Assembly: GCF_011777495.1 (NCBI RefSeq)
Contig: NZ_JAATJS010000004.1
Location: 124,001 to 188,000, forward strand
Direction of reading: 5' to 3'
DNA: 64,000 nucleotides
Origin: Microvirga terricola
GTDB lineage: Bacteria; Pseudomonadota; Alphaproteobacteria; Rhizobiales; Beijerinckiaceae
Below are positions 33,825 through 53,367 of this stretch, piece by piece. How positions within the stretch are numbered: position 1 is the stretch's first letter; every line of letters starts with the position of its first letter. The position numbers and the translations under genes were made by a program. The notes under the pieces were generated by a model. That model saw only the letters and a program-made list of their open reading frames with translations, did no database searches and was not told the DNA's origin.

Positions 33825-35375
33825 TCAGGATGCCTCCGCTTCCATATAACGCGGGAATATCGGCGCAGGTTGCGGCAGGGCCGTTCCAGCGACGAGGCGG
33901 CGGGACGGGCCAACGGCCGCTAGCACGCGATCCTCCGGCGCAACGGAGAGCAGATCGAGAAGCTTCGCCGCAGCGGTCGGTACGAACGGCTGGGCCAGAA
34001 TGCCGACCGCGCGAAGAACTTCCGCCGTGACATAGAGAACCGCGGCCATTCGAGCCGGATCCTGCTTGCGTAGAACCCAGGGCTCCTGGGAGGCAAAATA
34101 GCGGTTCGCCTCGGCAACCACCGCCCAAATTTCGCTCAGCGCCGTGTGTAGGGCATAGTCGTCGAGAGCCCCCCTCGCCTTTCCAGGCAGCGCATCGGCG
34201 AGCCAGAGCATATCCTGATCGGCCTGCGTGAAGTCTCCGGGCTGCGGAACAGCAGCGTCGCAATTCTTCGCGATCATCGACAAGGAGCGCTGCGCGAGAT
34301 TGCCGAGATCGTTCGCCAGATCCGCGTTGATCCGGTTCACGATAGCCTCGTGCGAATAGTTCCCGTCCTGGCCGAAGGGCACTTCGCGCATGAAGAAATA
34401 GCGAAGTTGGTCGACGCCGTAGGTCTCGGCAAGATCGAACGGATCGATCACATTGCCGACCGATTTGGACATCTTCTCCCCGCGGTTGAACAGGAAGCCG
34501 TGTCCGAAAACCCGCTTGGGCAGCGGAAGTCCGGCGGACATCAGAAAGGCGGGCCAATAGACCGTGTGGAACCGTACGATGTCCTTGCCGATGATATGAA
34601 CATCGGCCGGCCAGTAGTGCCAGCGTGGGTTCTTCTCATCGGGGAACCCGCAGCCCGTCAGATAGTTGTTGAGGGCGTCGACCCACACATACATCACGTG
34701 CTTCGGAGCGCCCGGAACAGGCAGGCCCCAGTTGAAGGTCGTGCGGCTGATCGAGAGATCTTGCAACCCGGAGCGGACGAAGCTGACGATCTCGTTGCGG
34801 CGCGTGTCTGGACTGACGAAATCCGGGTTTGCCTTGTAGTGCTCCAACAGGCGATCCTGATAGGCGGACAGCCGGAAGAAATAGCTTTCTTCCTCGATCC
34901 ATTCGACAGGCGTGCCGGTGGGCGCGCGCCAACTGCCATCAGGCAACTTCGTCATCTCGCTTTCATCATAGTAGGCCTCGTCGCGGACGGAGTACCAGCC
35001 GGCATACTTCGAGAGATAGATGTCTCCCTTCGCCTCCATACGGCGCCAGAGTTCTTGGGTCGAAGGCAGGTGGTCAGCATCGGTCGTGCGGATGAACCTG
35101 TCGTAAGAGCAGTTCAGCCGATCCGCCATGGCGCGGAACTTCCCCGCCATCTCGTCGACGAAAGCCTTGGGAGTCGTGCCATTCCGATCCGCAGTCTGCT
35201 GGATCTTCAGGCCGTGCTCATCGGTTCCGGTCATGAAGAACACATCGTAGCCATCGATGCGCTTGAAGCGCGCAATCGCGTCGGAGGCCACGATCTCGTA
35301 AGCATGTCCGATATGGGGAGCCCCATTCGGATACGAGATGGCCGTGGTGATATAAAATTTCTGCTTATCGGCCAT
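33825..35375 (-). CDS. metG: Methionyl-tRNA synthetase
   Basis: This 516-residue class I synthetase has the HIGH motif in [25 protein letters not shown], and the KMSKS loop in [12 protein letters not shown]. It is the short form without the C-terminal tRNA-binding dimerisation domain, usual in alphaproteobacteria. It follows holB and tmk. ATG 35375 (MADKQKFYI) is preferred to an upstream start. Confidence 0.97.
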
Positions 35376-35418
35376 ACTAAAACCTTGCTGGCCCAACCGT
35401 TTTCGGGTCGACAGGCGC

Positions 35419-36483
35419 TTATGCCGTTTGCCGAACCGCCTCGGAAAGGTCGTCGAACAGCGTCAGGATGAAAGGACGGCGGTCGAGATTGAACACGTCG
35501 ACCTCGCGCGCCGAACGGGCGATCTTGTCACACACCTCCACCAAAGGCGCAAGGCGTGACGCGCCAAGGCTGGCGCGCTGATGAAGCCGCCCCGTGACCC
35601 AGCGCTCCATCGTTTCGAGGGCGAGATCGAAGGTTTCATCGGCATCTCGTTTGGCAAGGGCCTCTGCGAGCGCGAGGATTTGCTTGGTATCCACTCGCGG
35701 TAACCCGTCGAGAAGTCTGGTCACGTGCTCGATGAAGGCGACTTTCTCTTCGTCGAGCAATTCGAGGCAGCGGCGGACCGAGCCTTCGCCGTAACGCAAG
35801 GCCTGCCCGACAACCTCGTCCGGAATCTCGGTCCAAGGCGCGCCCAGCGAAGCGATGACGGACCGGATGTCCGGGTCCGCGAGCGGTCGCAACAACAGAC
35901 GTCGGCAGCGCGAACGAATGGTCGGCAGGACGCGCTGCGGCGCATGGCTGATAATGAGAAATAACGAGCGCGGCGGCGGCTCCTCGATGACCTTGAGGAG
36001 CGCGTTGGCGCTCGAGATCGTCAGATCCTCGGCGCTATCGACGATGCAGATCCGGTAGCCGCCATCCGCTGCCGTTGAACCGAACATGTTCAGCGCCTTG
36101 CGCACCGCATCGACCGGGATCGTTGTCGACGGCCCCTTCTTGTCCGTCGCCGGCGCCCGCCGAAGAACGGCGAGATTGGGGTGGGACAATGCCGCGACCT
36201 GTCGGGCGACCGACGCAGAAGGCGCAACATTCAAATCACTGATGCCGGTGTCGCGGCCTTTCTGCGGGTCCAGGACTGCCCGGGCCACGCGATAGGCAAG
36301 AGAGGCCTTGCCGATGCCCTGAGGCCCGCCGATGAGCCAGGCATGGTGAAGACGCCCGCTGCGCAGGCCCTCGATGAACGCCGCTTCGCCCTCGGCGTGA
36401 CCGAAGAAGGCGAACTGCTCCCGTGGATGCAGGATGCCTTCCATCTGATCCGGCTCGTTCATCTCAGCATCGTCACGCGACAT
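35419..36483 (-). CDS. holB: DNA polymerase III delta' subunit
   Basis: This 354-residue clamp-loader subunit has a P-loop-like [16 protein letters not shown] and the [27 protein letters not shown] box with the sensor region of the DnaX/HolB family. It is part of the complex that loads the sliding clamp. Its start at 36483 overlaps the end of tmk by 11 bp, a typical coupling in this operon. Confidence 0.94.
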
Positions 36484-37147
36484 CGACCGGCCTCTTCGCA
36501 CCTGCTGCTAGAGCCGGGAGTCGCTGCCGAACGGCCGCCCAGATGGTAGCCTCGACTTCGTCGGGCGAGCGATTAGCGTCAATCACGGCGCAGCGCTCAG
36601 GGTCTACTCCGGCAATGGCGAGATAAGCTTCCCGAAGGGTTTGATGGAACGCGTGAGCTTCGTTCTCGAAGCGATCGACACCCTCCCCTTTGCTGAGACG
36701 CCTGGATCCGGCACGAGAAAGGCCGACCTCGGCGGGAAGATCGAGGATTAATGTCAAATCCGGTTTCACACCGCGCAAAGTGACCCTTTCTAGCCCTCCG
36801 ATCAATAGGTTATCGAGGTTTCCTGAAGCGCCCTGGTAGGCTCGCGTCGAGTCAGCGAACCGGTCGCAGAGCACGTGAACGCCCCTTTGAAGGGACGGTT
36901 CTACGGTCTTATCGATATGATCAATGCGAGCGGCCGCGAACAAGACCGCCTCGGCGAACGGCCCGAGATGCTTGGCGCGCCCTTCAAGAATAAAAGCACG
37001 AAGCTCCTCGGCATAGGGTGAACCGCCCGGCTCGCGTGTGACCAGAACGGGCTGTCCCAATTGCTCGAACCGCCTGCGAAGCCGGTCAATTTGGGTCGAC
37101 TTTCCTGCGCCTTCCCCGCCCTCGAAGGTGATGAAGTATCCGGCCAT
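36473..37147 (-). CDS. tmk: Thymidylate kinase
   Basis: This 224-residue enzyme makes dTDP from dTMP. It has the P-loop FEGGEGAGKSTQ, VTREPGGSP, the DRF motif in LCDRFADSTRAYQG, and the lid RRLSKGEGVDRFE. ATG 37147 overlaps the stop of the upstream carboxypeptidase gene by one base; a TTG codon precedes it. Confidence 0.97.
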   Translation of the reverse strand: MAGYFITFEGGEGAGKSTQIDRLRRRFEQLGQPVLVTREPGGSPYAEELRAFILEGRAKHLGPFAEAVLFAAARIDHIDKTVEPSLQRGVHVLCDRFADSTRAYQGASGNLDNLLIGGLERVTLRGVKPDLTLILDLPAEVGLSRAGSRRLSKGEGVDRFENEAHAFHQTLREAYLAIAGVDPERCAVIDANRSPDEVEATIWAAVRQRLPALAAGAKRPVDVA

Positions 37148-38367
37148 CAAAGCTTTTTAGAAATCATGTTGTTAACGCTCGACATGGCGCGCCGAACCCA
37201 TCCTGTGCCGAATTCCAGCAAGCCGTCCATGGCACGCTGAGGCAGATTACCTTCTTTGATGTCGGCGTTGGCGTAGAGGGGCATTTCGAGAGCCTGCATA
37301 TCACCACGGTTGACCCGGAGCCGGGCGACCTCGGCCCCCTTTTGGATGGGCGCCTTGAGCGGGCCGGTATAAACGATGCGAGCGGAGATCCGTTCTCCAT
37401 CGCCACGACGAACAAGTACACGAACGGGCTTCCTGGAGACAAGCGGCAAGGAACGCTGGTCCCCGCCAAAGACCTGCGCCTCGCCGATTACCTGCCCTTC
37501 GGCAAACAGTTGGCGCGGCTCGAAGGCGCGAAAGCCCCAATCCAACAGCTTCCGGGCCTCAAGGGCGCGATCCTTGGCGGTTTTCATGCCGTTGACCACG
37601 ACAATGAGCCTCTGGCCGTTCTGGATGGCCGATCCGACCAGGCCGTAGCCCGATTCTTCGAGGTTGCCGGTTTTCAGCCCGTCGGCGCCAATATCCATCG
37701 CGAGCAGCGGATTGCGGTTCTGTTGGCGGATTTTGTTCCAGGTAAACTCTCGCTCCCCGAACATTTTGTAGAGGTCGGGATAGGTGTCGATGACATAGAG
37801 GGCGAGCTTGGCAAGGTCACGAACCGTCACCTTTTGGTGAGGGTCGCTATACCCCGTCGCGTTACGAAAGGTGGACTTTGTAAGACCGATCTGCGCCGCG
37901 TGTTGGTTCATGATTTGAGCGAAATTCTCCTCCGTGCCCGAAACTCCCTCGGCGATTGCAATGGCCGCATCGTTACCCGACTGAACGACGAGGCCTCGCA
38001 GCAGATCCTCGAGGCGAATGCTCGTGTTCACCTTGGCGAACATCGAGGATCCCCCCGACCCGGCCCCTCCCCTGCGCCATGCGTGTTCCGAGATCGGGAA
38101 CTCCGAATTCAAGGTCAGACGCCCGCTCTTCAATTCACTGAACACCACCTCCGCCGTCATGAGCTTCGCCATGCTTGCGGGCGCCATCAGCTCGTCGGCA
38201 TTTTTCTCGAAGAGAACCGTCTGCGTATCCGCATCGATCAGGATGGCGGTCGGCGCGATCGTCTGGAAATTTTGTGCGAATGCCAGCTGGGGCAGCGCGA
38301 GCAGCCAAAGGGTACAGGAAAGAAGGCCGATAGCCGCGATCTTTCGGGCGTTCGCTCCTACGCGCAT
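37147..38367 (-). CDS. D-alanyl-D-alanine carboxypeptidase (penicillin-binding protein 5/6 type)
   Basis: This 406-residue periplasmic enzyme trims the terminal D-Ala from peptidoglycan stem peptides. It has a signal peptide (GLLSCTLWLLALPQLAFAQ), the SxxK motif SMAK at residues 65-68, SGN and KTG, and a C-terminal beta domain ending in an amphipathic anchor (RRAMSSVNNMISKK). ATG 38367 (MRVGANARK) is used; 38379 is possible. Corresponds to dacA/dacC/dacF-type genes. Confidence 0.94.
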   Translation of the reverse strand: MRVGANARKIAAIGLLSCTLWLLALPQLAFAQNFQTIAPTAILIDADTQTVLFEKNADELMAPASMAKLMTAEVVFSELKSGRLTLNSEFPISEHAWRRGGAGSGGSSMFAKVNTSIRLEDLLRGLVVQSGNDAAIAIAEGVSGTEENFAQIMNQHAAQIGLTKSTFRNATGYSDPHQKVTVRDLAKLALYVIDTYPDLYKMFGEREFTWNKIRQQNRNPLLAMDIGADGLKTGNLEESGYGLVGSAIQNGQRLIVVVNGMKTAKDRALEARKLLDWGFRAFEPRQLFAEGQVIGEAQVFGGDQRSLPLVSRKPVRVLVRRGDGERISARIVYTGPLKAPIQKGAEVARLRVNRGDMQALEMPLYANADIKEGNLPQRAMDGLLEFGTGWVRRAMSSVNNMISKKL

Positions 38368-38521
38368 CACGACACCCACAGACTTCCCTAGGAAAGGTGA
38401 AATCTGTGTCGGCGGGGTCCCAATTCAACGCTTCGCAATTGCCAGCGCGCGCTGGTATGGCCCCATGTACCCAGCCGAGATCAATAAAGGTGCCTCGGTC
38501 AGCTCTCGCCGACCGACGGAC

Positions 38522-39583
38522 TTATCGGAGAACGAACCGCGACTGGTCTAGCGTATTGAAGCCGTTGCCCTTCTGGAAACCGGCCTTCGATTCCTCAGGC
38601 GCCGAATAATACAACCCAGCCAGAACCGGGCGTGACGGCGGAAGGAAGACTGGACCGACCGAGCTGATCTTCGCAACCGGCGTCGCTGCACTTGGGATCG
38701 TTCCGAGATCGAAGGGCCGTTCCGGCGGGAGAGGAACCTTGCTTGCGAAGGACATAGAAACCGGGGCTGCCGGGGCAACAGCCTGCGCCGCGCTCGCCAC
38801 GGCGACCGGGGCATCCTCAGCCTCTTCGCTTGGCTCGAAGGTCCGCAACGCAATCGCATCGCGCGGCGCGTTCGGCCGCGGGGATGCCTGGGCAATCATC
38901 GTCGGCGAAGCGCCGCCCAGGGCTGCCGGCTGGCCATCCGTCCGAAGGCTCGCAAGCAGAATGCGGTCGTCACTGCCGTTGGTTGATGCACGTCCGACAT
39001 ATTCGACCCGGACTCGGGCCGTGCCCTGCCCCTTGAAGCCGAGAGCGGTCGCCGCGCGCTCGGACACGTCGATAATACGGTTGCCGTGGAACGGGCCTCG
39101 GTCATTGACCCGGACGATCATGGAGTGACCGTTCTGCAGGTTCGTGACGCGAGCATAGCTCGGCAGAGGCATCGTCGTATGCGCCGCGGCAATCGAGGCC
39201 CGATCAAAGATCTCCCCGTTTGCCGTCATGCGGCCATGGAAATTCGAGCCGTACCAGGAAGCCAAACCTTCGCCCGCGTAACGATTGTTCTCGCTTGGCT
39301 GATAGGTCCGGCCCGCAACCGTGTAAGCCTTTCCGACCAACTCGCGGCCGCCACCTTTCGGAACGGGCTGACCGTCGGCAATCACTTTCGGGCTCGGCGC
39401 CACCCCATATTTGGGGTCGATGCCGCTGCGATTGGAGCAGTTCGCCGCCATCAAAGCGATGGCGGTCACGCCTGCAATGCGGAGGACGGCCTGATGATTA
39501 AGGAGCGAGAAGCGCCCGCTCAATCCGGTCTTCGACTCAGCGCGATCACAATGCATTTCGGTCTGCATCCCCTTATTTCGCAC
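38522..39583 (-). CDS. rlpA: RlpA-like septal ring lytic protein
   Basis: This protein of up to 353 residues has an N-terminal hydrophobic segment with a lipobox-like LMAANC near residue 49, then a double-psi beta-barrel domain (GLASWYGSNFHGRMTANGE, MIVRVNDRGPF, IIDVSERAA) that contains the catalytic residues of RlpA transglycosylases. The C-terminal half is low-complexity (Ala, Pro) and I see no clear SPOR domain. The start is uncertain; an ATG 15 bp downstream is also possible. It heads the minus-strand cluster. Confidence 0.9.
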   Translation of the reverse strand: MRNKGMQTEMHCDRAESKTGLSGRFSLLNHQAVLRIAGVTAIALMAANCSNRSGIDPKYGVAPSPKVIADGQPVPKGGGRELVGKAYTVAGRTYQPSENNRYAGEGLASWYGSNFHGRMTANGEIFDRASIAAAHTTMPLPSYARVTNLQNGHSMIVRVNDRGPFHGNRIIDVSERAATALGFKGQGTARVRVEYVGRASTNGSDDRILLASLRTDGQPAALGGASPTMIAQASPRPNAPRDAIALRTFEPSEEAEDAPVAVASAAQAVAPAAPVSMSFASKVPLPPERPFDLGTIPSAATPVAKISSVGPVFLPPSRPVLAGLYYSAPEESKAGFQKGNGFNTLDQSRFVLR

Positions 39584-39936
39584 GGCCTGTAGCGCTCAAT
39601 CCTCTTGAGGTAGCCACAAAGGTGCTATTTCGGCCGGTACAAGGGAGGTTAAATAGCCGCGCTTGTCAATGGCAAAGCTGCCTTGAATGGTATTTCGTAC
39701 GATTGATCGATATTTTCATATATAACAAATACTTACCGGCCCCCTATCGGCTCGCAGGAGCGAGTTTGCGGTGCATAAGCCGCCGGGCCCGGGCGGAATC
39801 CGCGGCTTATCTCGCTTCGGACATCGCGCTTTCGATTTGTGCACGATATATGCGTGTTCGAGTTGACGGGATCGGGCTCGCCGCCTTAGACAGCCGAGTG
39901 ATCGCGGGGCAGGTCCGTTCGCCTTGTCGCTAGATC
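39584..39936. other. Intergenic region between rlpA and tRNA-Ser
   Basis: This 353-bp gap between divergent units is partly AT-rich (39710-39745). It should contain the rlpA promoter on the minus strand and the tRNA promoter on the plus strand. A short plus-strand frame (39622-39933) has no recognisable features and is probably not a gene. Confidence 0.5.
39863..39891 (+). promoter_or_regulatory. Likely promoter of tRNA-Ser
   Basis: TTGACG at 39863-39868 and TTAGAC at 39886-39891 are 17 bp apart and end 45 bp before the mature tRNA 5' end. The spacing and the good -35 box fit a sigma-70 promoter. Confidence 0.5.
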
Positions 39937-40026
39937 GGAGGGGTGGCCGAGTGGTTTAAGGCAGCGGTCTTGAAAACCGCCGTGGGTGCAAGCCCACCGT
40001 GGGTTCGAATCCCACCCCCTCCGCCA
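39937..40026 (+). tRNA. tRNA-Ser, anticodon TGA
   Basis: The 90-nt gene has a perfect 7-bp acceptor stem (GGAGGGG with CCCCTCC), D arm TGGCCGAGTGGTTTAAGGC, anticodon loop CTTGAAA with TGA at 39971-39973, a long variable arm (GTGGGTGCAAGCCCAC) as in class II tRNAs, T loop GGTTCGAATC and an encoded CCA. Serine tRNAs are common insertion sites; an integrase remnant starts about 100 bp downstream. Confidence 0.98.
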
Positions 40027-40124
40027 GTTTTCTAATAAGTGCCTCAAGGCACAGCTTAAATCAGCGCTAGCAGTCAGCCGTTTCGTGTCCATTGGTACAG
40101 CAACCTGGGACAAAGAGGCTGATC

Positions 40125-41195
40125 TTGGCGAACTACCGTGTGCCCCATCTCGTACGTCGAGGGCACGTCTTCTGGTTTCGAATGGCTCTACCCCGCTTGC
40201 TAGTCCAACGATTTGGGCGTCGTGAGCTTAAGCTAAGCCTCAAGACGACTCACCCGGATATTGCTAGGCTTAGAACTCGCGCCCTTAGTGCGGCCTCAGT
40301 GCAATTGATTGCAATCGTCCAAGCCATGTCCAACCTATCCCCCAGCAACGTTCAAGAGATCGCTAGGTGGTATCTCCAAGAGCAGCTCGCTAGGACTGAG
40401 GAGCTTGCGCTTAGCGGCTCCCTCACCAAGCAGGGTGTTGGCACGGCAACCCTGTCAGGCACCAACACCTACGCCGGCGGCACCGTCACCAACAACGCCG
40501 CCCTGGTGCTCGATCAGGCGACCAATGGCACGATGGCCAACGCCATCTCCGGCACCGGCTCCCTAACCAAGAAGGGCTCGGGCGCGCTCAGCCTGACCGG
40601 CTCCAGCAGCCTGTCAGGTTCGACGATTGTCGAGGCCGGTCGTCTGGCGGTGATCGGCGGCTCTCTCGGGGGTACCGGCGTGCTCGGCGGGATCGTGGCC
40701 CAGAGCGGCGGCGCGGTGGCGCCAGGCAACTCCATCGGCACGCTGAACGTCGCTGGCAATGTCAGCTTCGGCGCGGGCTCGGTCTACCAGGTGGAGGTGA
40801 ATGCGACGGGACAGTCGGACCGCATCGCCGCCACCGGCACGGCTACTCTGACGGGCGGTACCGTTCAGGTGCTGGCCGAAACCGGCACGTATCGGCCTTC
40901 CACCACCTACACCATCCTGACCGCCGCTGGCGGGGTGAGCGGCACCTTGACCGGCGTCAGCTCCAATTTCGCCTTCCTGACGCCGTCTCTCGGCTATGAT
41001 CCGACGGCGGTCAGCCTAACCCTCAGCCGCACCTCAGCCCTCACGCCTAGCGTGGTCGTGCCGAGATCATTGTCCCGAGCCAGCCCGGTCAGGGCCGCGG
41101 CCCCGCCATTCTCCCGAAAACCATCTGTGTGCAGCCGCAGCACGGAGGCGCCCACGAATGGCTCGATGAAGGCTCCCGTCCCCTCGAAGCGGTAA
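40125..41195 (+). pseudogene. Chimera: integrase N-terminus fused in frame to autotransporter passenger
   Basis: The first ~97 codons (from TTG 40125; the frame opens at 40092) match the N-terminal region of tyrosine integrases (YRVPHLVRRGHVFWFRMALP, LKLSLKTTHPDIARLRTRAL). No catalytic domain follows. At about 40416 the frame passes into an autotransporter passenger with beta-strand repeats (GSLTKQGVGTATLSGTNTY, GSLTKKGSGALSLTGSSSL) and a GDLSLVP-like end region (GAVAPGNSIGTLNVAGNV, YTILTAAGGVSGTLTGVSS). After 41031 the sequence is an inverted part of the beta-barrel read backwards, ending at 41195. It has no signal peptide, so secretion is unlikely. Confidence 0.85.
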
Positions 41196-42009
41196 CCCAA
41201 TTCGCCGAAGGCCTGGGCGGCCCAGCCGTCATAGGAGGCATTGACAGCATCTTGGAAGCCGGGGAAGCGGACTATGCGGCTGACATTGATGTTGTGGGAG
41301 GCATAAGACGTCCCCAACCGGAGGCCGATCGCGCCCCATTGGCCCGCACCGTACAGCGCCCCGAACACGCTCTCGTTCGTGCCCGAGGACAGTCGGCCAT
41401 CGATGTTGAAGGTCGTACGGGTGAAGCCGCCGGCCAAGCCGAGGCGGAAGGTGGAAACAAGCTGGGCGTCAGCGCCGAGAATGAAGCCGCCGGTGGACGC
41501 GTCGATGCGGGCCGTATTGGCATTGCCGTCGACCTTGCCCCAGGCGCCGAAGCCCTCACCCCACAGGGCGAAGCGGCGCTGGTCGAGCGACGGCATGACG
41601 ACGACCGACTGCGGCGTGCTGCCTCCGGCGCGGTCTGCCGCATAGGCGACAGTGTAGGAACCTTGCACAAAGACCGGCAAACCGGAGGCGGCGCTCAACG
41701 GTTGGCGCAGCCGGGTGAAGATCGCCTCGCGTACGAGACCGCTCCCTGCGTAGGCCATGCTCGCAGAAGAGGCATGCGCCTCCCCGGAGAGCGCGTCGAA
41801 GGCCTGCCGGGCGCCGGCCACGCTCTGGCCCATCACCGCATTGAACAGGCGGTGACCTGCACCCAGCGCGTCGACACCGTCAGCGGTGGCGTACTGGTTC
41901 CGCGTCGTGGCTACCGAGTGGAACGCAACGGGAGTGGGCTCACTAGGGTCGGTGGGATCTGTAGGGTCGCTCGGATCCGTAGGGCCTGTGGGATCGGTTG
42001 GCTCGGTCT
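41032..42009 (-). pseudogene. Autotransporter linker and beta-barrel (first part), inverted
   Basis: Read on the minus strand, a proline/threonine linker (about 42007 to 41930) is followed by the start of an autotransporter beta domain: VAFHSVATTRNQYATADGVD, then SGEAHASSASMAY, RFALWGEGFGAWGKVDGNAN, GFILGADAQLVSTFRLGLAGG and GELGYRFEGTGAFIEPFVGAS, ending near LARDNDLGTTTLGVRAE. The final strands expected next are missing here and are found on the plus strand at 42020-42296. No start codon with a signal peptide exists in this orientation, so it is not an independent gene. Confidence 0.85.
41930..42007 (-). repeat. PTDP-type codon repeat (autotransporter linker)
   Basis: The minus strand encodes 26 residues built from repeats of P-T-D-P, P-T-G-P, P-S-D-P and P-S-E-P. 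Short 9-base units (variants of GGATCC/GTAGGG on the plus strand) repeat. Such linkers join passenger and barrel in some autotransporters. Confidence 0.8.
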
Positions 42010-42296
42010 TGCGGGTGAGCGAGGACGTGCCCCTGACGGTGAAAGGCCTGATCGGCTGGCGCCGTGCCTTTGGCGATGTCGCGCCGCAGGCGCTGCTGGC
42101 CTTTACCGGTGGAGCTTCGGCATTCACGGTGACTGGCACTCCGATCGATCGCGCCGCCCTTGTGGCGGAAGCGGGGCTCGACTGGCGGGCGTCGGAGGCG
42201 ATCAGCTTGGGCGTGGCGTACGCGGGGCAGATCGGATCACAAGCGCAAAACCATACCGTCATGGGTAACTTCGTTTGGCGATTTGGCACGCGGTAG
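42010..42296 (+). pseudogene. Autotransporter beta-barrel, last strands
   Basis: About 95 codons in the same frame as the passenger. LTVKGLIGWRRAFGDVAPQA, LLAFTGGASAFTVTGTPIDR, LVAEAGLDWRASEAISLGVA and GQIGSQAQNHTVMGNFVWRF are the usual final strands of the autotransporter domain, which follow GVRAEVRL in family members. The protein would end three residues after the canonical aromatic (WRF-GTR). It is separated from the rest of the barrel by the inverted segment. Confidence 0.85.
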
Positions 42297-42605
42297 GGTG
42301 ATGCGGGGCCTCGCGTGGAGGCTCGGGTCGGCAGAACCGAGGGCCAGCTCCGGGCCAAACTCTGTCCATAGGCACGGGCACGCATAGTTGCGGGTCGATT
42401 ATCCGGTCGCGAAGCTCGTCTGCGAGCTCAATGACGTTGCCTTGCCTCATGCGCAGCAAACTGCGGCCGACCGTCCCGCCTTCGAGGAGTACCAGCCAGG
42501 GCAAAACGAATGCCTCTGGGAATTCATGGCTCTGCTCAACCATCCGCTGGGCGAGCCGTTTGATGCTCGCCGCATCGACGTTTACGAGCCTCTCTCGCAT
42601 ACGTT
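42297..42605. other. Region after the autotransporter, uncertain minus-strand frame
   Basis: A minus-strand frame (42600 down to 42259) encodes up to 113 residues (RERLVNVDAASIKRLAQRMV, EFPEAFVLPWLVLLEGG, GNVIELADELRDRI), with codon use biased to G/C in third positions. It overlaps the autotransporter end by 38 bp. A competing plus-strand frame from 42388 is also open. I recognise neither; this may be island remnant. Confidence 0.3.
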
Positions 42606-43073
42606 CTATCTGCGGTCGGGATTTGAGACTGAGCCAAAAGTGATCGTCACCGGCGAGAAGTTCGGAGCGGCCAAGCCCTCCATGCCCAAGAGGGCGTGCG
42701 CGTTCCCCGGCATCACCGGCACATCGATCAGCACCGACTTGCAGCCGAGCCGGTCTGCCAACTCCTGCACACCGGAAAGCACCGTCGCGTTCACTTCCTC
42801 ACCGGGCAACCGGCTGACGATGAGGTCTGTGACGCGCAGGCACGCGGTCGCGCGGCGGTCCCGGTCGACGGCATAGGCGAACAAGGCGTGCAAGACGCCC
42901 CGTCGGTCGCGCGCGGCCATCAACCCGCCCTGCCCGGGCTTGCGGCGGGCGAGGCGGCGGGCGAAAGTCACCCAGTCCTGCAATGTCACGGCGGGATCGA
43001 ACATCTGGACCAGCGGATAGGCCAAATGAGCCTCTTTCGGTGACAGGGGCGCGACGTGAAACAGATCCTGCAT
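42606..43073 (-). CDS. Probable GNAT-like acetyltransferase
   Basis: About 155 residues from ATG 43073 (MQDLFHVAPLSPKEAHLAYP). The order GGLMAARDRRGVLHALFAYAV, LRVTDLIVSRLPGEEVNATV, LADRLGCKSVLIDVP resembles the core of a GNAT N-acetyltransferase fold, but the acetyl-CoA loop is not clear. The frame extends to 43130, where the start codon would abut the Fnr box; the shorter start seems better. It is divergent from the Fnr-type regulator, so the shared Fnr box may affect both. Confidence 0.6.
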   Translation of the reverse strand: MQDLFHVAPLSPKEAHLAYPLVQMFDPAVTLQDWVTFARRLARRKPGQGGLMAARDRRGVLHALFAYAVDRDRRATACLRVTDLIVSRLPGEEVNATVLSGVQELADRLGCKSVLIDVPVMPGNAHALLGMEGLAAPNFSPVTITFGSVSNPDRR

Positions 43074-43129
43074 GCCGGGACGGTTGTGAAAAAGAAGCAG
43101 CACCATTTCACAGGCCCAGCCCTGCGACA

Positions 43130-43143
43130 TTGATGCAGGTCAA
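43130..43143 (+). promoter_or_regulatory. Fnr/FixK box upstream of the Fnr-type regulator gene
   Basis: TTGATGCAGGTCAA matches the consensus TTGAT-N4-ATCAA at 9 of 10 fixed positions. It lies 72 bp before the regulator start and suggests autoregulation. It could also act on the divergent acetyltransferase-like gene. Confidence 0.7.
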
Positions 43144-43214
43144 GCCTGCGCTCCGGTTGAACCTTGTCCGATAAATTGTGCTAATAGGAATCGGAACAGG
43201 AGAGAGGCCAAACC

Positions 43215-43961
43215 GTGGATCGAATAGAACCGGCACTTCAATGGAACGACTCACCCGCGGCCTGCCTGCACGGCCTCGGTGTGAGCGCCTGTGCCGATTG
43301 CCGGGTCCGCCAGATCAGCGTTTGCGCGGCTTTGGACCCGCACGAGCTGACCGAAATCGACTCCCTGAGCCACCCTACCGCCTTCCCCGCCAAAAGCACG
43401 CTGTTCACGCAGGAGGATCCCGCCAGCGCCGTGTTCAACATCACCGAGGGCATGGTGCGGCTCTACAAGCTCCTGCCAGACGGGCGCCGCCAGATCGTGG
43501 GGTTCGCGCTTGCCGGGGATTTTCTTGGGCTTGCCCTTCTCGACCGTTACGGTGTCTCGGCGGATGCGATCACCGACACAAAAGTCTGCCGGTTTTCCCG
43601 CAGCGCCTTCACGGCCTTTCTCGACAAGAAGCCCCACCTCCTGCGCCGCCTGCATGAATTCGCCAGCCACGAGCTCAGCCTTGCGCAGGATCAGATGGTC
43701 CTGCTTGGCCGCCGCACGGCGGATGAGCGGATCGCTGCGTTCCTGATGAGCCTGAAGGAGCGTTTCGCCCGAATCGGTCACACCTCGATCACCCTGCCTC
43801 TCCCTATGAGCCGCCAGGACATTGCCGATTTCCTCGGGCTGACCATCGAAACCGTGAGCCGGACCTTCTCGAAACTCGCCAAAAGCGGCGTGATCGTTGT
43901 GGTACCGGACGGCGTGCGCCTCACAAACCTCGCGCAAATCAAGGCGTTAGCAACGCGATAG
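43215..43961 (+). CDS. fnrN: Fnr-type oxygen-responsive regulator (FnrN/FixK family)
   Basis: This 248-residue Crp/Fnr protein has N-terminal cysteines C17, C26, C29 and C37 and an internal C125, the arrangement expected for an oxygen-labile [4Fe-4S] cluster. A cyclic-nucleotide-type beta roll follows, then a helix-turn-helix with ETVSR, the Fnr-specific recognition residues. The GTG start at 43215 follows an AGGAGAGAGG ribosome binding site. It sits just before ccoNOQP, which has an Fnr box. FixK proteins usually lack the cysteines, so FnrN is the better name. Confidence 0.93.
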   Translation: MDRIEPALQWNDSPAACLHGLGVSACADCRVRQISVCAALDPHELTEIDSLSHPTAFPAKSTLFTQEDPASAVFNITEGMVRLYKLLPDGRRQIVGFALAGDFLGLALLDRYGVSADAITDTKVCRFSRSAFTAFLDKKPHLLRRLHEFASHELSLAQDQMVLLGRRTADERIAAFLMSLKERFARIGHTSITLPLPMSRQDIADFLGLTIETVSRTFSKLAKSGVIVVVPDGVRLTNLAQIKALATR

Positions 43962-43994
43962 CGCCAGGCGACCCTCGCCCGAAGCGGGACCGTT

Positions 43995-44008
43995 TTGACC
44001 TGAATCAA
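43995..44008 (+). promoter_or_regulatory. Fnr box upstream of ccoN
   Basis: TTGACCTGAATCAA matches TTGAT-N4-ATCAA at 9 of 10 positions and lies about 83 bp before the ccoN ATG. It is the expected control site for low-oxygen induction of the oxidase operon. Confidence 0.8.
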
Positions 44009-44090
44009 TGCTGCGTTCGTATTCTCCCGTTAGAGCCTCGCCCAAAGGGTGAAGCTTCGTGCCTCGCTCTTGGAAGAAAGTTCGAGGCCC

Positions 44091-45749
44091 ATGACGCACG
44101 CGGCAACATCCCCTAAAAGCATGACCTTCGGCGAGGCGGGCTCCGCCCTCGCCTTCGCGGCACTGGCACTTCTGTGCATCATCATCGCAGCGAAGGCTTA
44201 TACGCCGGAATACGCATTCCACGCATACCTGTTCGCCGCGGCCAGCGGCTGGGCGGCGTTCAAGATCGTGGATCGCTTCTACGACCGTCCGGCGCAGTTG
44301 CCGCCGCGCGAGATCAACGGCAAGCCCAACTACAATATGGGGCCGGTGAAATTTGCCACCATCGCTGGCGTGTTCTGGGGCGTGGCGGGCTTCACGATCG
44401 GCCTCCTCATCGCATCGCAGCTCGCCTTTCCCGCGTTGAACTTCGACACGGCGTGGCTCTCTTTCGGGCGCATGCGGCCGCTCCACACCTCGGCGGTCAT
44501 CTTCGCCTTCGGCGGCAACGTCCTGATAGCCACCTCGCTCTATGTGGTGCAGCGCACCTCCCGGGCCCGTCTCGTGGGCGACATCGCGCCGTGGTTCGTG
44601 GTGCTGGGCTACAACTTCTTCATCGTCATCGCCGGCACGGGCTATCTGCTCGGCATCACGCAGGGCAAGGAATATGCCGAGCCCGAGTGGTATGCGGATC
44701 TCTGGCTCACCGTCGTGTGGGTCGCGTATCTTTTGGTTTTCCTCGGCACCGTCATGCGCCGCAAGGAGCCGCATATCTACGTGGCGAACTGGTTCTACCT
44801 CGCCTTCATCCTGACCATTGCCGTTCTGCATCTCGGCAACAACGCCGCGATCCCGGTCTCAATCTTCTCGCCCAAGAGCTACATCGTCTGGGCAGGCGTT
44901 CAGGATGCCATGGTGCAGTGGTGGTATGGGCATAACGCGGTCGGCTTCTTCCTCACCGCCGGCTTCCTCGCCATCATGTACTACTTCATCCCGAAGCGGG
45001 CCGAGCGTCCGGTCTATTCCTACCGGCTGTCGATCATCCACTTCTGGGCGCTGATCTTCCTCTACATCTGGGCCGGCCCGCATCACCTGCATTACACCGC
45101 CCTGCCCGACTGGGCGCAGACGCTCGGCATGACCTTCTCGATCATGCTGTGGATGCCCTCCTGGGGCGGCATGATCAACGGCCTCATGACGCTCTCGGGC
45201 GCATGGGACAAGTTGCGGACCGATCCGGTTCTGCGCCTGATGGTGGTGTCGGTCGCCTTCTACGGCATGGCCACCTTCGAGGGCCCGCTCATGTCGGTGA
45301 AGGCGGTGAACACGCTCTCGCACTATACGGACTGGACCATCGGGCACGTGCATTCCGGTGCACTGGGCTGGGTGGCCTATGTGTCCTTCGGCGCGATCTA
45401 CTGCCTTGTTCCATGGCTATGGAACAAAGAACGCCTGTACTCCTTGAAGGCTGTCAGCTGGCATTTCTGGATCTCGACGCTCGGCATCGTTCTCTACATC
45501 TCGTCGATGTGGGTCGCGGGCATTCTCCAGGGCCTCATGTGGCGTGCCTACACGAGCCTCGGCTTCCTCGAATATTCGTTCATCGAAACGGTCGAGGCCA
45601 TGCACCCCTTCTACGTCATCCGTGCGCTCGGCGGCGTGCTCTTCGTCGGTGGCAGCCTGATCATGGCCTGGAACGTCTGGAAGACGATCACCTCCGCGAA
45701 GGACATCGCCGTCGCCGAGGAACGGCCTCTCCTCGTGGCCGCTGAGTAA
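44091..45749 (+). CDS. ccoN: cbb3-type cytochrome c oxidase subunit I
   Basis: This 552-residue catalytic subunit holds heme b and the heme b3-CuB site. Many membrane segments are visible, and conserved histidines occur in [33 protein letters not shown] and [14 protein letters not shown]. The enzyme reduces oxygen with high affinity under microaerobic conditions and pumps protons. I use ATG 44091 (MTHAATSPK); an in-frame start at 44049 is possible. The order NOQP is intact. Confidence 0.97.
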
Positions 45750-45760
45750 AGGAACCGATC

Positions 45761-46495
45761 ATGTCTCTCTGGTCCCGCCACAAAATCTTCGAGACCAACT
45801 CGATCATTCTCCTCATCGGCGTGCTGCTCGTGATCTCCATCGGCGGTCTCGTGGAAATCGTGCCGCTCTTCTATCTCAAGAGCACCATCGAAAAGGTGGA
45901 GGGCGTACGGCCCTACACCCCGCTCGAACTCGCCGGACGCAACGTCTATGTGCGCGAGGGCTGCTATAACTGCCACAGCCAGATGATCCGCCCCTTGCGT
46001 GACGAAGTGGAGCGCTACGGCCACTATTCGCTCGCGGCGGAAAGCATGTACGACCGCCCCTTCCAGTGGGGTTCCAAGCGCACGGGCCCTGATCTCGCTC
46101 GCGTCGGCAACAAGTATTCCGACGATTGGCACCGGGATCACCTGAAGGATCCCCGCGCGGTCGTGCCGGGCTCCATCATGCCGAGCTATCCTTGGCTGAC
46201 CGAGCGCGAGGTCGATCCGGCCCTCGTCGCCGACGACATGAAGGTGCAGGCCGCGCTCGGTGTTCCTTACACTGCCGAGATGATCGCGAAGGCGGACGCC
46301 GATCTGCGGATTCAGGCGACCACCGACGACCCGGACGCTACGGCTCTCGCCTCCCGCTATCCGAAAGCGCAGTCGCGTGACTTCGACGGCAATGCCCAGC
46401 GCATCTCGGAAGCCGACGCCCTGATCGCGTACCTCCAGATGCTCGGAACGCAGGTCGATTTCAAACTCTACGACAACAAAGCGAACATTCGCTGA
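45761..46495 (+). CDS. ccoO: cbb3 oxidase monoheme cytochrome c subunit
   Basis: This 244-residue subunit has one N-terminal membrane anchor ([20 protein letters not shown]) and one heme c site CYNCH in [24 protein letters not shown] includes a likely methionine ligand region. It passes electrons towards CcoN. It starts 11 bp after ccoN. Confidence 0.97.
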
Positions 46496-46505
46496 GGTGT
46501 GAGAG

Positions 46506-46661
46506 ATGTTCGAAACCTACAAATCCCTCGCGGAATTCGCCCAGACCTGGGGGCTTCTCTACTTCGTCGGCGTCTTCCTCGCGGTCGTCGTCTATGCCCT
46601 CTCTCCTTCGCGCAAGAAGCGTTTCGAAGACGCAGCGCGCATCCCTCTCCAGGAGGATTGA
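46506..46661 (+). CDS. ccoQ: cbb3 oxidase small subunit CcoQ
   Basis: A 51-residue protein too short for many gene callers. It begins MFETYKSLAEFAQTWGLLYF, has one membrane segment (LLYFVGVFLAVVVYAL) and ends in a basic tail followed by acidic residues (SPSRKKRFEDAARIPLQED), as typical CcoQ. It sits between ccoO and ccoP with gaps of 10 and 3 bp and overlaps neither. CcoQ stabilises the complex. Confidence 0.95.
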   Translation: MFETYKSLAEFAQTWGLLYFVGVFLAVVVYALSPSRKKRFEDAARIPLQED

Positions 46662-46664
46662 TCC

Positions 46665-47549
46665 ATGGCCCACGAGACGAAAGAACAGGTCGATGCCGTC
46701 ACCGGCGTCACCACGACCGGGCATAGCTGGGACGGGATCTCGGAACTCAACAACCCGCTCCCGCGCTGGTGGCTGTGGTCCTTCTATCTCACGATCCTCT
46801 GGTCCATCGGATATTGGGTGGTCTATCCCGCATGGCCGCTTGCGACCTCTTACACGAGAGGCCTCTTCAACTGGCAATCGCGCGAGGCCATCGTTGCGGA
46901 TCTTGATGATCTGAAAGCCCAGCGAGCGAGTATGACGGCGCAACTGGCCCGAAGCTCGCTTGACGCGATCAAGCAGACTCCTGAGCTGTTCGCCTTTGCG
47001 CGCGCTCAAGGAAAGGCCGCCTTCGGCGACAACTGTGCTCCGTGCCACGGTGCCGGCGGGGGGGGCGCGAAGAGCTACCCGAACCTCAACGACGACGACT
47101 GGCTGTGGGGTGGGTCGCTGGCGCAGATCGAGCAGACCATCCGCTACGGCGCACGCTCGACGAGCGACAAAGGCCACCAAGGCTCCATGCCGGCCTTCGG
47201 CCGAGACGGAATGCTCAAGCGCAGCGAGCTTTCCAACGTGGCGGACTATGTCCGCTCTCTCTCCGGCCTTGCCACAGAAAAGGGGGCGGATCTTGCGGCG
47301 GGAGCTAAGATCTTCGCGGATAATTGCGCCGCCTGTCATGGCGACAAGGGGCAAGGCAGTCAGGATCTCGGCGCGCCGAACCTCTCCGACAAGATCTGGC
47401 TGTTCGGCTCGGACAAGGCCACCATCATGGAAGGCTTGTGGAACGGGCGTGGCGGCGTGATGCCGGCCTGGGAAGGGCGCCTGGACGACACCACCATCAA
47501 GGCCTTGACCCTCTACGTCCATTCGCTCGGCGGCGATCAGAGGCGCTGA
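46665..47549 (+). CDS. ccoP: cbb3 oxidase diheme cytochrome c subunit
   Basis: This 294-residue subunit has an N-terminal membrane segment (WWLWSFYLTILWSIGYWVVY) and two heme c motifs, CAPCH and CAACH, each followed by a methionine region (GSMPAFG and GVMPAWEG). It accepts electrons from soluble cytochrome c. An AGGAGG ribosome binding site within the end of ccoQ precedes the ATG. Confidence 0.97.
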   Translation: MAHETKEQVDAVTGVTTTGHSWDGISELNNPLPRWWLWSFYLTILWSIGYWVVYPAWPLATSYTRGLFNWQSREAIVADLDDLKAQRASMTAQLARSSLDAIKQTPELFAFARAQGKAAFGDNCAPCHGAGGGGAKSYPNLNDDDWLWGGSLAQIEQTIRYGARSTSDKGHQGSMPAFGRDGMLKRSELSNVADYVRSLSGLATEKGADLAAGAKIFADNCAACHGDKGQGSQDLGAPNLSDKIWLFGSDKATIMEGLWNGRGGVMPAWEGRLDDTTIKALTLYVHSLGGDQRR

Positions 47550-47608
47550 GAACCTCGCGGAATTTCCCAAGAACGGCGGCCCGTGATCACCCACGGGTCG
47601 CTTTGCCG

Positions 47609-47622
47609 TTGATGCAAATCAA
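47609..47622 (+). promoter_or_regulatory. Perfect Fnr box upstream of ccoG
   Basis: TTGATGCAAATCAA matches TTGAT-N4-ATCAA at all ten fixed positions, 60 bp before the ccoG ATG. This implies that ccoGHIS form a second Fnr-controlled unit apart from ccoNOQP. A short stem (CCCGTG/CACGGG) just upstream could end the ccoP transcript, but has no T-run. Confidence 0.88.
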
Positions 47623-47681
47623 GGCGCCTTTTCGTCCATCATCTTATTCGAAAGTCGAAACGAGAAGATTTGGCGGAATCA

Positions 47682-49148
47682 ATGGCTGACGCTCCCCTTG
47701 CCCCCAACCTCGCCACACCGTCGCCGGACGAAGACGAGGGGCCGCTCTACATCGCACGCAAGGCGATCTATCCGCAGGCCGTGAAGGGGCATTTCCGCAC
47801 GATCAAATGGATTGTGCTCGCCGTCACCTTGGGGATCTACTACTTCCTCCCCTTCATCCGCTGGGATCGCGGCCCGAACGCGCCGGGACAGGCGATCCTG
47901 GTCGATTTCACCAACAATCGCTTTTATTTCTTCTTCATCGAGATCTGGCCGCAGGAGGTCTACTACCTCACCGGCCTTCTCATTCTCGCTTCCCTGGCCC
48001 TCTTCCTGATGAATGCGGTCGCGGGACGTCTGTGGTGCGGCTATCTCTGCCCACAGACGGTATGGACGGACCTGTTCTACTCCATCGAACGGTTGATTGA
48101 GGGCGAAAAGCGCGACCGCATCCGCCGGGAAAAGGAAGGCCGTAAACTCGAAATCTTTTCGCTGCGGCTGCTCAAACACGCGATCTGGCTTCTTATCGCC
48201 TGGTGGACCGGCGGCGCGTGGGTGCTCTACTTCGCCGACGCCCCGACTCTGGTCAAGGAGCTGGCGACGTTTCAGGCGCCGATGATCGCTTACATCTGGA
48301 TCGGGATTCTGACTTTCACGACCTACACGTTTGCCGGCTTCATGCGCGAGCAGGTCTGCACCTACATGTGCCCCTGGCCACGCATTCAGGCCGCGTTGAC
48401 CGACGAATACGCGCTCAACGTCACCTATCGCTATGATCGCGGCGAGCCGCGTGGCTCGATGAAGAAGAACCAAGCGCTGCGCGATGCCGGACTTCCGGCC
48501 GGCGACTGCGTGGACTGCAACCAATGCGTCGCCGTCTGCCCGACGGGCGTCGATATCCGCCAGGGCCTGCAGCTCGATTGCATCCAGTGCGGCCTGTGTA
48601 TCGATGCCTGCGACAACGTGATGGCGAAGATCGGCCGTCCGACCCGCCTGATCGCCTATGATACGGAGATGAACGTCCGTGCCCGCATGGAGGGGCGCCC
48701 CGAGGTTCGGCGCATCGTTCGCCCGCGCACCCTGCTCTATCTCGGCCTGATCGCGCTCGTCGGAGCCGTGATGGCCGGGGCGCTGGGGCTGCGCGAGCGG
48801 CTCGATCTCAGCGTGCTGCACGACCGCAATCCGATGTTCGTGAGGCTCTCGGATGGCTCGATCCGCAATGCCTATACGATCCGCGTTGGAAACAAACATC
48901 TCGATGACAGGCGTTTCGCCCTAACCGTTACCGGGGTCGATGTTGCGAAACTCGATATCGTCGGTGGAGAGATCGACGCGCAGGGCCGCGCCATTCTTGT
49001 CGTCAAGCCTGACCAGACCCTCGAAGCACGCGTCCTCGTGAGCGCGAGCGCTGACGGGCTTGCTTCCTCGACGAACCTTCTGTTCACATTGACCGATCTC
49101 GCCGGCGGCGAAACCGCCCATGCGAGCGACCATTTCAAGGCGCCATGA
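47682..49148 (+). CDS. ccoG: Cytochrome oxidase assembly/copper protein CcoG (FixG/RdxA)
   Basis: This 488-residue membrane protein has about five membrane segments and two ferredoxin-type motifs, CVDCNQCVAVC and CIQCGLCIDAC, preceded by GRLWCGYLCPQTVW and VCTYMCPWPRIQ. CcoG reduces copper during biogenesis of cbb3 oxidase. A C-terminal immunoglobulin-like domain (about 370-488) ends the protein. ATG 47682 is chosen; a TTG at 47670 adds four residues. Confidence 0.95.
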   Translation: MADAPLAPNLATPSPDEDEGPLYIARKAIYPQAVKGHFRTIKWIVLAVTLGIYYFLPFIRWDRGPNAPGQAILVDFTNNRFYFFFIEIWPQEVYYLTGLLILASLALFLMNAVAGRLWCGYLCPQTVWTDLFYSIERLIEGEKRDRIRREKEGRKLEIFSLRLLKHAIWLLIAWWTGGAWVLYFADAPTLVKELATFQAPMIAYIWIGILTFTTYTFAGFMREQVCTYMCPWPRIQAALTDEYALNVTYRYDRGEPRGSMKKNQALRDAGLPAGDCVDCNQCVAVCPTGVDIRQGLQLDCIQCGLCIDACDNVMAKIGRPTRLIAYDTEMNVRARMEGRPEVRRIVRPRTLLYLGLIALVGAVMAGALGLRERLDLSVLHDRNPMFVRLSDGSIRNAYTIRVGNKHLDDRRFALTVTGVDVAKLDIVGGEIDAQGRAILVVKPDQTLEARVLVSASADGLASSTNLLFTLTDLAGGETAHASDHFKAP

Positions 49149-49149
49149 C

Positions 49150-49668
49150 GTGAACACGATGCAAAACGCCATCGCCCCGCAACGGGATCCTCGCCCCCTC
49201 ACCGGCCGCATGGTGCTGGTCTGCTTCATCGCTTTCTTCGGCATCGTCTTTGCCATGAACGCGATCATGGTTCGGGCTGCGACCACGACCTTCGGTGGCG
49301 TTGAGACCGAAAGCTCGTACAAGGCCGGCCTCAACTTCAAGAACGATGTCGCCGCCGCCGAAGCCCAGGACGCCCTACATTGGAAAGTTGAGGCGGCCCT
49401 TGTGAAGGATGGCGGGAAAACCCGTGTGAACGTGACGGCGCGTGATGCAGAAAGCCGTCCTCTCGGCGGACTGACCATCGAGGCGCGGCTCTACCATCCG
49501 ACAGACAAGCGCCGCGACGTGGTTCTCGAACTCGCCGACGTCACCCCGGGACAGTTCCAGTTCGCAACGCCGCTTCCGCCCGGCCAATGGGATCTCATGA
49601 TCGGCCTCAAACGCGGAGAGGAAACGGTTTTCCGGTCCAAGAGCCGCATCACGATCAAGAGCCTGTAG
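49150..49668 (+). CDS. ccoH: cbb3 oxidase assembly protein CcoH (FixH)
   Basis: This 172-residue protein has one membrane anchor (MVLVCFIAFFGIVFAMNAIM) followed by VRAATTTFGGVETESSYKAG, the family core, and a periplasmic domain with LPPGQWDLMI. CcoH interacts with CcoN during assembly. GTG 49150 follows the ccoG stop directly; ATG 49159 is a possible alternative. Confidence 0.93.
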   Translation: MNTMQNAIAPQRDPRPLTGRMVLVCFIAFFGIVFAMNAIMVRAATTTFGGVETESSYKAGLNFKNDVAAAEAQDALHWKVEAALVKDGGKTRVNVTARDAESRPLGGLTIEARLYHPTDKRRDVVLELADVTPGQFQFATPLPPGQWDLMIGLKRGEETVFRSKSRITIKSL

Positions 49669-49689
49669 GGACCCCAGGAAGCGAACGCG

Positions 49690-51924: not shown

Positions 51925-51928
51925 TCTC

Positions 51929-52078
51929 ATGGACGTATTACTCTATCTCGTTCCGATGGCTCTTCTTCTCGGCCTGACGGGGCTCGCGGCCTTCATGTGG
52001 TCTTTGAAAAGCGGCCAATACGACGATGTGGAGGGTGCGGCTTTGCGCGTCCTCTCGGACGATGACATCAAACCATGA
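51929..52078 (+). CDS. ccoS: cbb3 oxidase maturation protein CcoS
   Basis: A 49-residue protein, beginning MDVLLYLVPMALLLGLTGLA, with one membrane segment and the typical W-S-L-K-S-G-Q-Y-D-D motif after it. CcoS is needed for cofactor insertion into the oxidase. It starts 4 bp after ccoI and overlaps the MFS-like gene by 4 bp (ATGA). Confidence 0.95.
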   Translation: MDVLLYLVPMALLLGLTGLAAFMWSLKSGQYDDVEGAALRVLSDDDIKP

Positions 52079-53190
52079 GCACCACCACCTCCATCCCCCG
52101 CGCCGGACAGATTGAATGCGTCTGCGAGCCGGGAGCGCTTGGAGAAACCTCTGAGGGGCGAAGCAGCGTTGCCCTTCTCGCCATCGCCTTCTCGCTCTCG
52201 ATCCTCTCCCAGATCTTCAGCCTGAGCATTCTGCCGTTGGCGGGGCTTGCGCTTGCACCGAGTGACAGCCTCGCAACCCTACCCTATGCGGCCTTCTACG
52301 CGGGCGCGGCTTTGGCGAGCCTCCCCGCCTCGCTCTTGCTCGACGCATTCGGCAGGCGCGCGGCCTTCTCACTCGGTGCAAGTTTGGGTGCTGCGGGCGG
52401 CATGGTGCTCGTCTTCGCTCTCACGACTTTCCGTTTCGGCGCTCTGGTGCTGGGCGCGTTCTGGCTCGGCATCGCCAGCGGCTTCAGCCTGTTCTATCGC
52501 CATGCAGCGGTGCCGGTCGGCGGTAAAGGGACGAGCGCGATCCTCATCGTCTTTGGGGCGGCATCCGTTGCGGGGATTGTTGCGCCGACGCTCGGAGCAA
52601 CGGCGGAAGCGTTTGCCGCCCCGCGCGAATTCGTCGGCCTTGCCGCCGCCGCCGCGCTTGCTCATGTCGGCTCGCTCATTGCCACCGCCGCCTTGCCTTA
52701 TCGACGCATTCGCGAGGAAGTGAATGAGGCGAACAATCCGCAGGGCTGGCGCGCGATAGTCCTCCCCACTGCCATCGGCGCGGCGGCGTGGTTCCTGATG
52801 ACCGGCCTCATGGGTGCGACGCCCATCGCGATGGTCGGCTGCGGCCTCTCCGACGCGGTTTCCGGGACCATCGCCTGGCATGTCATGGCGATGTATACGC
52901 CCTCGCTCGTCCTTCTCGCATTTCGCAACGCGGTGAAACCACCTGTCATCGTCAGCTTTGGCGCACTGCTTCTCGTGGCGGCAGCTGCGATCTTTGCTTT
53001 TTCCAGCAAAGTCGCGGGCTTTTCCGTCTCCGCGACCCTTCTCGGCGCCGGCTGGTCGCTGGCGACCCTCGGTACGACCTTGTGGATCCACAAGGATGGC
53101 CGCCCCTCGCGCCGGCTGTTGGGAGCGCACGACGCAGCCCTGCTAAGCGCGGCCCTTCTCGGCGCGCTCGCGGCGCAGACGTTTGCGTAA
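52075..53190 (+). CDS. MFS-like membrane transporter at the end of the cco operon
   Basis: This 371-residue protein has 10-12 hydrophobic segments (for example ALLAIAFSLSILSQIFSLSI, YAAFYAGAALASLPASLLLD, FGALVLGAFWLGIASGFSLF) and an MFS-like loop LLDAFGRRAAF. Its translational overlap with ccoS suggests a role with the oxidase, perhaps copper uptake like the MFS protein CcoA, but CcoA's motifs (MxxxM and the like) are not clear to me. The N-terminus has a cysteine pair (IECVCEPG). Confidence 0.75.
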   Translation: MSTTTSIPRAGQIECVCEPGALGETSEGRSSVALLAIAFSLSILSQIFSLSILPLAGLALAPSDSLATLPYAAFYAGAALASLPASLLLDAFGRRAAFSLGASLGAAGGMVLVFALTTFRFGALVLGAFWLGIASGFSLFYRHAAVPVGGKGTSAILIVFGAASVAGIVAPTLGATAEAFAAPREFVGLAAAAALAHVGSLIATAALPYRRIREEVNEANNPQGWRAIVLPTAIGAAAWFLMTGLMGATPIAMVGCGLSDAVSGTIAWHVMAMYTPSLVLLAFRNAVKPPVIVSFGALLLVAAAAIFAFSSKVAGFSVSATLLGAGWSLATLGTTLWIHKDGRPSRRLLGAHDAALLSAALLGALAAQTFA

Positions 53191-53367
53191 TACAGACCGC
53201 TCATCAGACCACAAAGAAATATGCGACCATCGCAAGCGACCAATAGCAGCCGAAGGTCCGCTGTGGCTTAGACACGGTCCTTGGCAGCTGCCATCATGCC
53301 CCAGTAGAGACAGAGCATAACAACACTCTCTCTTTGAGAAGTGAGACTGGCCATAGGTGCTCTGTCA

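Follow-up and report, generated by a model that had tools for sequence, protein, structure and literature searches.

Organization of the locus

The window analyzed here is a stretch of 64,000 nucleotides (G000:C11:124001-188000) from a contig of 523,723 bases, in a host genome of 3.75 Mb assembled into 16 contigs. Downstream of a tRNA-Ser gene it holds the pieces of an autotransporter gene (Table 1), whose C-terminal barrel (PF03797) does not lie in one frame and is split over two strands. In the Pfam search, an open reading frame on the minus strand (42385-40994) matched positions 1-185 of the barrel profile, and one on the plus strand (41886-42296) matched positions 187-254. The plus-strand frame upstream of them (40092-41195) encodes a DUF6538 domain at residues 19-72, followed by PATR repeats. 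These PF03797 and PATR matches agree with the layout described in the earlier note, in which the linker and most of the barrel are on the minus strand and the passenger and last strands on the plus strand.

Table 1. Features of the split autotransporter gene and its upstream flank, in window coordinates
Feature	Position	Strand	Basis
tRNA-Ser (TGA), probable integration site of the integrase-bringing element	39937..40026	+	ARAGORN, Rfam; intact integrase after the same tRNA in G005
Integrase N-terminal remnant (DUF6538), without the catalytic part; end uncertain by about 40 bases	40092..40424	+	PF20172, E 4.9e-14
In-frame fusion zone between integrase remnant and passenger	40379..40424	.	Where matches end and start
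PATR passenger, last part	40413..41021	+	PF12951, 2 stretches; mostly 35-60% identical to the passengers of homologs in the best alignments
Left arm CTCAGCCGCA of the 10-bp near-inverted repeat	41022..41031	+	Repeat comparison
Probable inverted segment: Pro/Thr/Asp-rich linker and PF03797 positions 1-185	41022..42019	-	Pfam; alignments with homologs extend to residue 332
Right arm TGCGGGTGAG of the 10-bp near-inverted repeat	42010..42019	+	Repeat comparison
Last barrel strands (PF03797 187-254), C-terminus and stop	42012..42296	+	Pfam, genus search, stop list

On the upstream side, positions 34000-39680 are collinear with relatives, and the tRNA-Ser gene then follows in seven of nine loci (L028, L032, L033, L034, L036, L037 and L038, the exceptions being L035 and L039). 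On the downstream side, positions 42637-53191 match another contig of the relative G005 at 85%. The split gene thus sits at a rearrangement border relative to G005, at which gene order breaks. Elsewhere in the window, a SECIS_3 element (16591-16649) and a tRNA-Sec gene (25073-25168) mark a selenocysteine system.

Two other autotransporters, encoded on other contigs of the host genome, are open over 1019 and 878 amino acids and match the whole PF03797 profile. Both are Microvirga PATR autotransporters (PF12951 plus PF03797) of the same linker and barrel family, with mid-barrels 61% and 48% identical to that of the window. Relative to them, the N-terminus and the front part of the passenger are absent from the window copy, which has an integrase fragment instead and carries its linker and mid-barrel inverted. 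Capture of sequence from a close paralog in this genome was considered and discarded, as DNA identity to the copies detected there is about 67%. Among the relatives, four autotransporter loci on contig C1 of G054 gave the same score for the C-terminal piece, and two autotransporters of G017:C2 (L030) appear alike by eye from about ALWGEGFG onward. Such paralogs seem to share their 3' barrel ends and to differ in their passengers, which suggests 3'-end homogenization accompanied by passenger change.

Fit of the pieces to an inversion

Scoring of the best 8000 candidates from the protein homolog search yielded 113 homologs, 97 of which have the two barrel pieces contiguous and in order, with an offset of 0 to -4 residues. 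The remaining 16 have a mid-barrel but no C-terminal piece, and in 15 of these the similarity stops before residue 332. The other one, a 586-aa barrel protein of Rhizobium leguminosarum (P0093), is similar up to residue 332, the equivalent of the barrel breakpoint of the window, and terminates 3 residues further on, which may reflect chance or a frameshift.

The pieces of the window, searched apart, meet closely in homologs at both borders. In the homolog L003, the mid-barrel match ends at 2397 and that of the C-terminal piece starts at 2392 (an overlap of about 6 bases), and at the passenger border the linker match begins at 1429, before the passenger match stops at 1437 (9 bases). Larger overlaps of local alignments were observed at the passenger border in L007 (33 bases), L026 (84) and L022 (99), which we take as alignment run-on. 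Most homologs show a VTLTLVR-like motif at the passenger/linker border and many a RAEARLSDEVP-like motif at the barrel border, and the ends of the segment in the window look like the matching halves of these motifs. Pieces that fit one barrel in this way are far from what chance would give, and a clean 998-bp inversion at 41022-42019 appears to be the best reading of the sequence. The domain order and barrel continuity claimed earlier hold as well, with profile positions 1-185 followed by 187-254 and pieces that abut in homologs.

The reading frame would also be retained. Plus-strand frames of the gene are at 0 mod 3, the low coordinate of minus-strand codons is at 2 mod 3, and 41022 plus 42019 gives 1 mod 3, as frame retention requires, so that the two repeats at the segment ends do lie in the same codon phase. 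Furthermore, the plus frame is free of stops over 40068-41193 and 41853-42294, and the minus frame over 40994-42400. From this arithmetic and the stop lists, rather than from a constructed inverted sequence, the prediction that inversion would open one single frame is correct. Retention of the frame at both junctions has a chance expectation of about 1 in 9.

Orientation in relatives

Searches of 48 genomes from the genus, among them that of the host, were run with the mid-barrel (E 1e-20) and, independently, with the C-terminal piece (E 1e-5), and gave matches in 33 and 35 genomes, respectively. Of the 102 C-terminal and 100 mid-barrel matches, those lying within 200 bases of each other formed 91 pairs. 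In 90 of these pairs, from 33 genomes, both pieces are on one strand and in order, the sole exception being the window itself; thus, no inversion was detected in any of the 90 other adjacent pairs. At these thresholds, 11 C-terminal and 9 mid-barrel matches stayed unpaired, with no counterpart on either strand within 200 bases; some of them start where a contig begins. G005 gave no match to the barrel of the window in this search. Named records in which a mid-barrel relative occurs are those of Microvirga alba and M. rosea (5 loci); Microvirga is an environmental group that is not known for pathogens. The top DNA match to the barrel among the relatives, at 73%, is G004:C40:23152-24077, where mid-barrel matches are found in two open frames; this copy may be frameshifted.

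The integrase fusion upstream

The remnant that precedes the passenger is 69% identical over 107 residues to an integrase of G005 (67% over G005 residues 10-121). In G005, whose genome is about as large, this tRNA-Ser has behind it an uninterrupted integrase of 587 aa with both DUF6538 and PF00589 domains; the window, in contrast, retains a fragment with DUF6538 alone, lacking the PF00589 catalytic domain. The DNA match to G005 ends at 40378 and the protein matches end around 40412 or 40424, the passenger matches of several homologs begin around 40413, and the GC content is 0.549 before 40410 and 0.676 after it. The last 12 to 40 bases of the tRNA-Ser gene occur once as exact words in the window, with no second copy of its 3' end.

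In whole homologs, roughly 300 to 1050 residues precede the part kept in the window, as estimated from alignment positions relative to the open reading frames. Judged by homology, an N-terminal secretion signal is missing before the passenger of the window, where the PATR repeats are preceded by the integrase N-terminus. The restorable frame starts with a TTG at 40125, inside this N-terminus and not at that of an autotransporter, and would encode a fusion of about 110 N-terminal integrase residues, passenger and barrel, devoid of an autotransporter start. As the integrase fragment occupies the place of that start, the start is missing in either orientation, and neither orientation provides a complete gene.

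A reciprocal exchange that left the lost parts elsewhere in the genome was considered and rejected. For the integrase beyond about residue 121 of the G005 protein, matches in the genome reach only 21-33%, and when the front of a G017 autotransporter (830 residues) was used as a query, the only matches were the two other copies and the piece in the window. Regarding G005, the stretch behind its tRNA-Ser integrase (L028, G005:C21, 5843-15201) encodes a Cas9-like protein of 1090 aa (HNH_4, RuvC_III and Cas9_a) together with Cas1, and contains a small open reading frame that is Cas2-like by eye. Apparently, a type II CRISPR locus lies inside or beside the integrative element there.

The repeat at the segment ends

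The near-inverse repeats reported to bound the segment were found, with CTCAGCCGCA and TGCGGGTGAG matching as an inverted repeat at 9 of 10 positions. No run of matches extends the repeat outside these 10 bp, and a longer repeat hidden at the segment ends was discarded on these grounds. Taken by itself this repeat is weak. Between 40400-41400 and 41501-42300, 80 of 784,672 position pairs reach 9/10, and the probability of such a match at both breakpoints by chance is 0.1-4%, depending on the freedom allowed to the breakpoint position. The corresponding borders were compared in 26 homolog rows, after dropping 11 further ones (1 without the boundary motif and 10 below 45% identity), and none of the 26 reached 9/10, the best matches being 6, 7 and 8 of 10 in 9, 9 and 8 rows, respectively. 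By comparison, 16 of 520 pairs of random windows from the same homolog genes reach 9/10. As the homolog borders stay at 6-8 of 10 and random windows attain 9, the repeat is at background level in homologs and is not a kept site. It may have guided the inversion, yet it is also compatible with chance.

Origin of the split gene

Taken together, these data make it very probable that the locus is a decaying autotransporter pseudogene that underwent at least two rearrangements, including a separate clean inversion. A mobile element with a DUF6538 tyrosine integrase would have sat at the tRNA-Ser gene, as suggested by the remnant and by the intact integrase that a relative has at this tRNA. A deletion, or some other rearrangement, presumably produced the in-frame fusion of about 110 integrase codons to the last passenger repeats, a step that would have removed the start for secretion along with the first part of the passenger. 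The separate 998-bp inversion, which the fit with homologs shows, has moved the linker and most of the barrel to the other strand, and both events could have occurred in either order. Short-repeat inversion can take place by template switching, and the likely cause here would be a chance 10-bp near-repeat within coding sequence, through illegitimate recombination or template switching; a literature search on RecA-independent inversion at short repeats with template switching returned no paper. A working surface protein is not expected from either orientation.

The present state of the gene argues in part against decay. Its pieces are free of stops, which counts against a pseudogene, as do the frame kept at both junctions and the lack of relaxed constraint on the mid-barrel, the only part to which the following values refer: for the 12 pairs that include the window mean pN/pS was 0.391, compared with 0.399 for 66 homolog pairs (range 0.26-0.53). 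The absence of both stops and relaxed constraint suggests that decay is recent or not yet visible, although the pN/pS test is possibly too weak, as pairwise values average a long shared history.

An error of assembly, with the segment misoriented and the real gene being an integrase-passenger-barrel fusion in normal order, appears improbable. The genome is a draft, and several of the barrel pieces in G052 start at base 2 of a contig, supporting that genes of this kind can break assemblies. Nevertheless, repeats of 10 bp do not normally mislead assemblers, the other copies in the genome are too distant in DNA (see above) to favor such an error, and the gene would still have no start if the segment were turned around.

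A phase-variable intragenic inverton, in which a site-specific recombinase would flip 41022-42019 through the 10-bp repeats and switch the surface protein on and off, with the present state being OFF, is distinctly improbable. The inversion is clean, has a repeat at both ends and keeps the frame; moreover, 10 bp is at the lower limit of the 10-40 nt given for inverton repeats (PMC11892184), and the class of gene fits in view of the Akkermansia inverton mentioned below. The genome also encodes three PF00239 serine recombinases (two on C1 and one on C13). One of these, of 182 aa (L026 10961-11509, G000:C1:234960-235508), lies about 2.5 kb downstream of the open 1019-aa paralog on C1; its five NCBIfam matches are all below cut-off, that to the Mpi invertase family scoring 52 bits against a cut-off of 272. 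In contrast, the Pfam search gave no PF00239, PF00589 or PF01548 match on contig C11 (524 kb), which carries the segment: the four PF00589 tyrosine recombinases all lie on C1, a further weak integrase match lies on C13, and IS110/Piv-type PF01548 gave no match at all. An enzyme of another family, or one with a distant gene, could still act on the segment. The unextended 9/10 repeat, at background level in the 26 homolog rows, and the uniform order of the 90 other adjacent pairs also speak against a switch, as does the restored orientation, which would still have the integrase fragment in place of an autotransporter start. Rescue of the idea as a live intragenic switch, in which that fragment serves as the start of a new protein and a distant serine recombinase flips the barrel through the 10-bp sites, we regard as highly unlikely. 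Thus, the earlier interpretation stands where it invoked a one-off inversion in a decaying gene and is not supported where it invoked a phase-variable switch in the OFF state.

Finally, the view that no inversion took place and that two autotransporter fragments of separate origin came together on opposite strands is barely tenable: the closest relatives in the genus search do differ between the mid-barrel (G017, 70%) and the C-terminal piece (G054, 80%), so that the pieces may have different histories, but they meet at the same two points where homologs are continuous, and the paralogs with shared 3' ends suggest mosaic histories in whole genes too.

Comparison with known invertons

We conclude that the inversion is real and ordinary in kind. 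Intragenic invertons, reportedly described by Chanin et al. in 2024, are said to be inversions inside a coding region with short inverted repeats at their ends. The segment likewise lies within coding sequence, and at its ends it has a 10-bp near-repeat that is also compatible with chance, but nothing indicates that it can flip back, that a recombinase serves it or that its repeat is kept, and it is seen in a single genome. Autotransporter genes have been linked to inversion in other bacteria. In Akkermansia, an inverton is reported near two proteins with autotransporter domains (PMC11892184), and in the ipuS-upaE switch of E. coli a promoter element is inverted by tyrosine recombinases, two of which have their genes next to the switch (PMC6083910). 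The likeness to this latter switch is an inversion tied to an autotransporter gene; there, the inverted part is a promoter element, whereas here it is coding sequence and no such recombinase gene was found near. Papers on Microvirga and autotransporters, judged by title and by the start of the abstract, included none on this topic.

The locus clearly illustrates that a pseudogene can pass for an in-frame invertible segment: considered by itself the segment looks like a switch, and only the upstream fusion reveals that neither orientation is complete. This calls for caution in inverton surveys that rely on short repeats and restored open frames. If it were a switch after all, the barrel of a secreted protein would contain an inverton with very short sites, which would be unusual.
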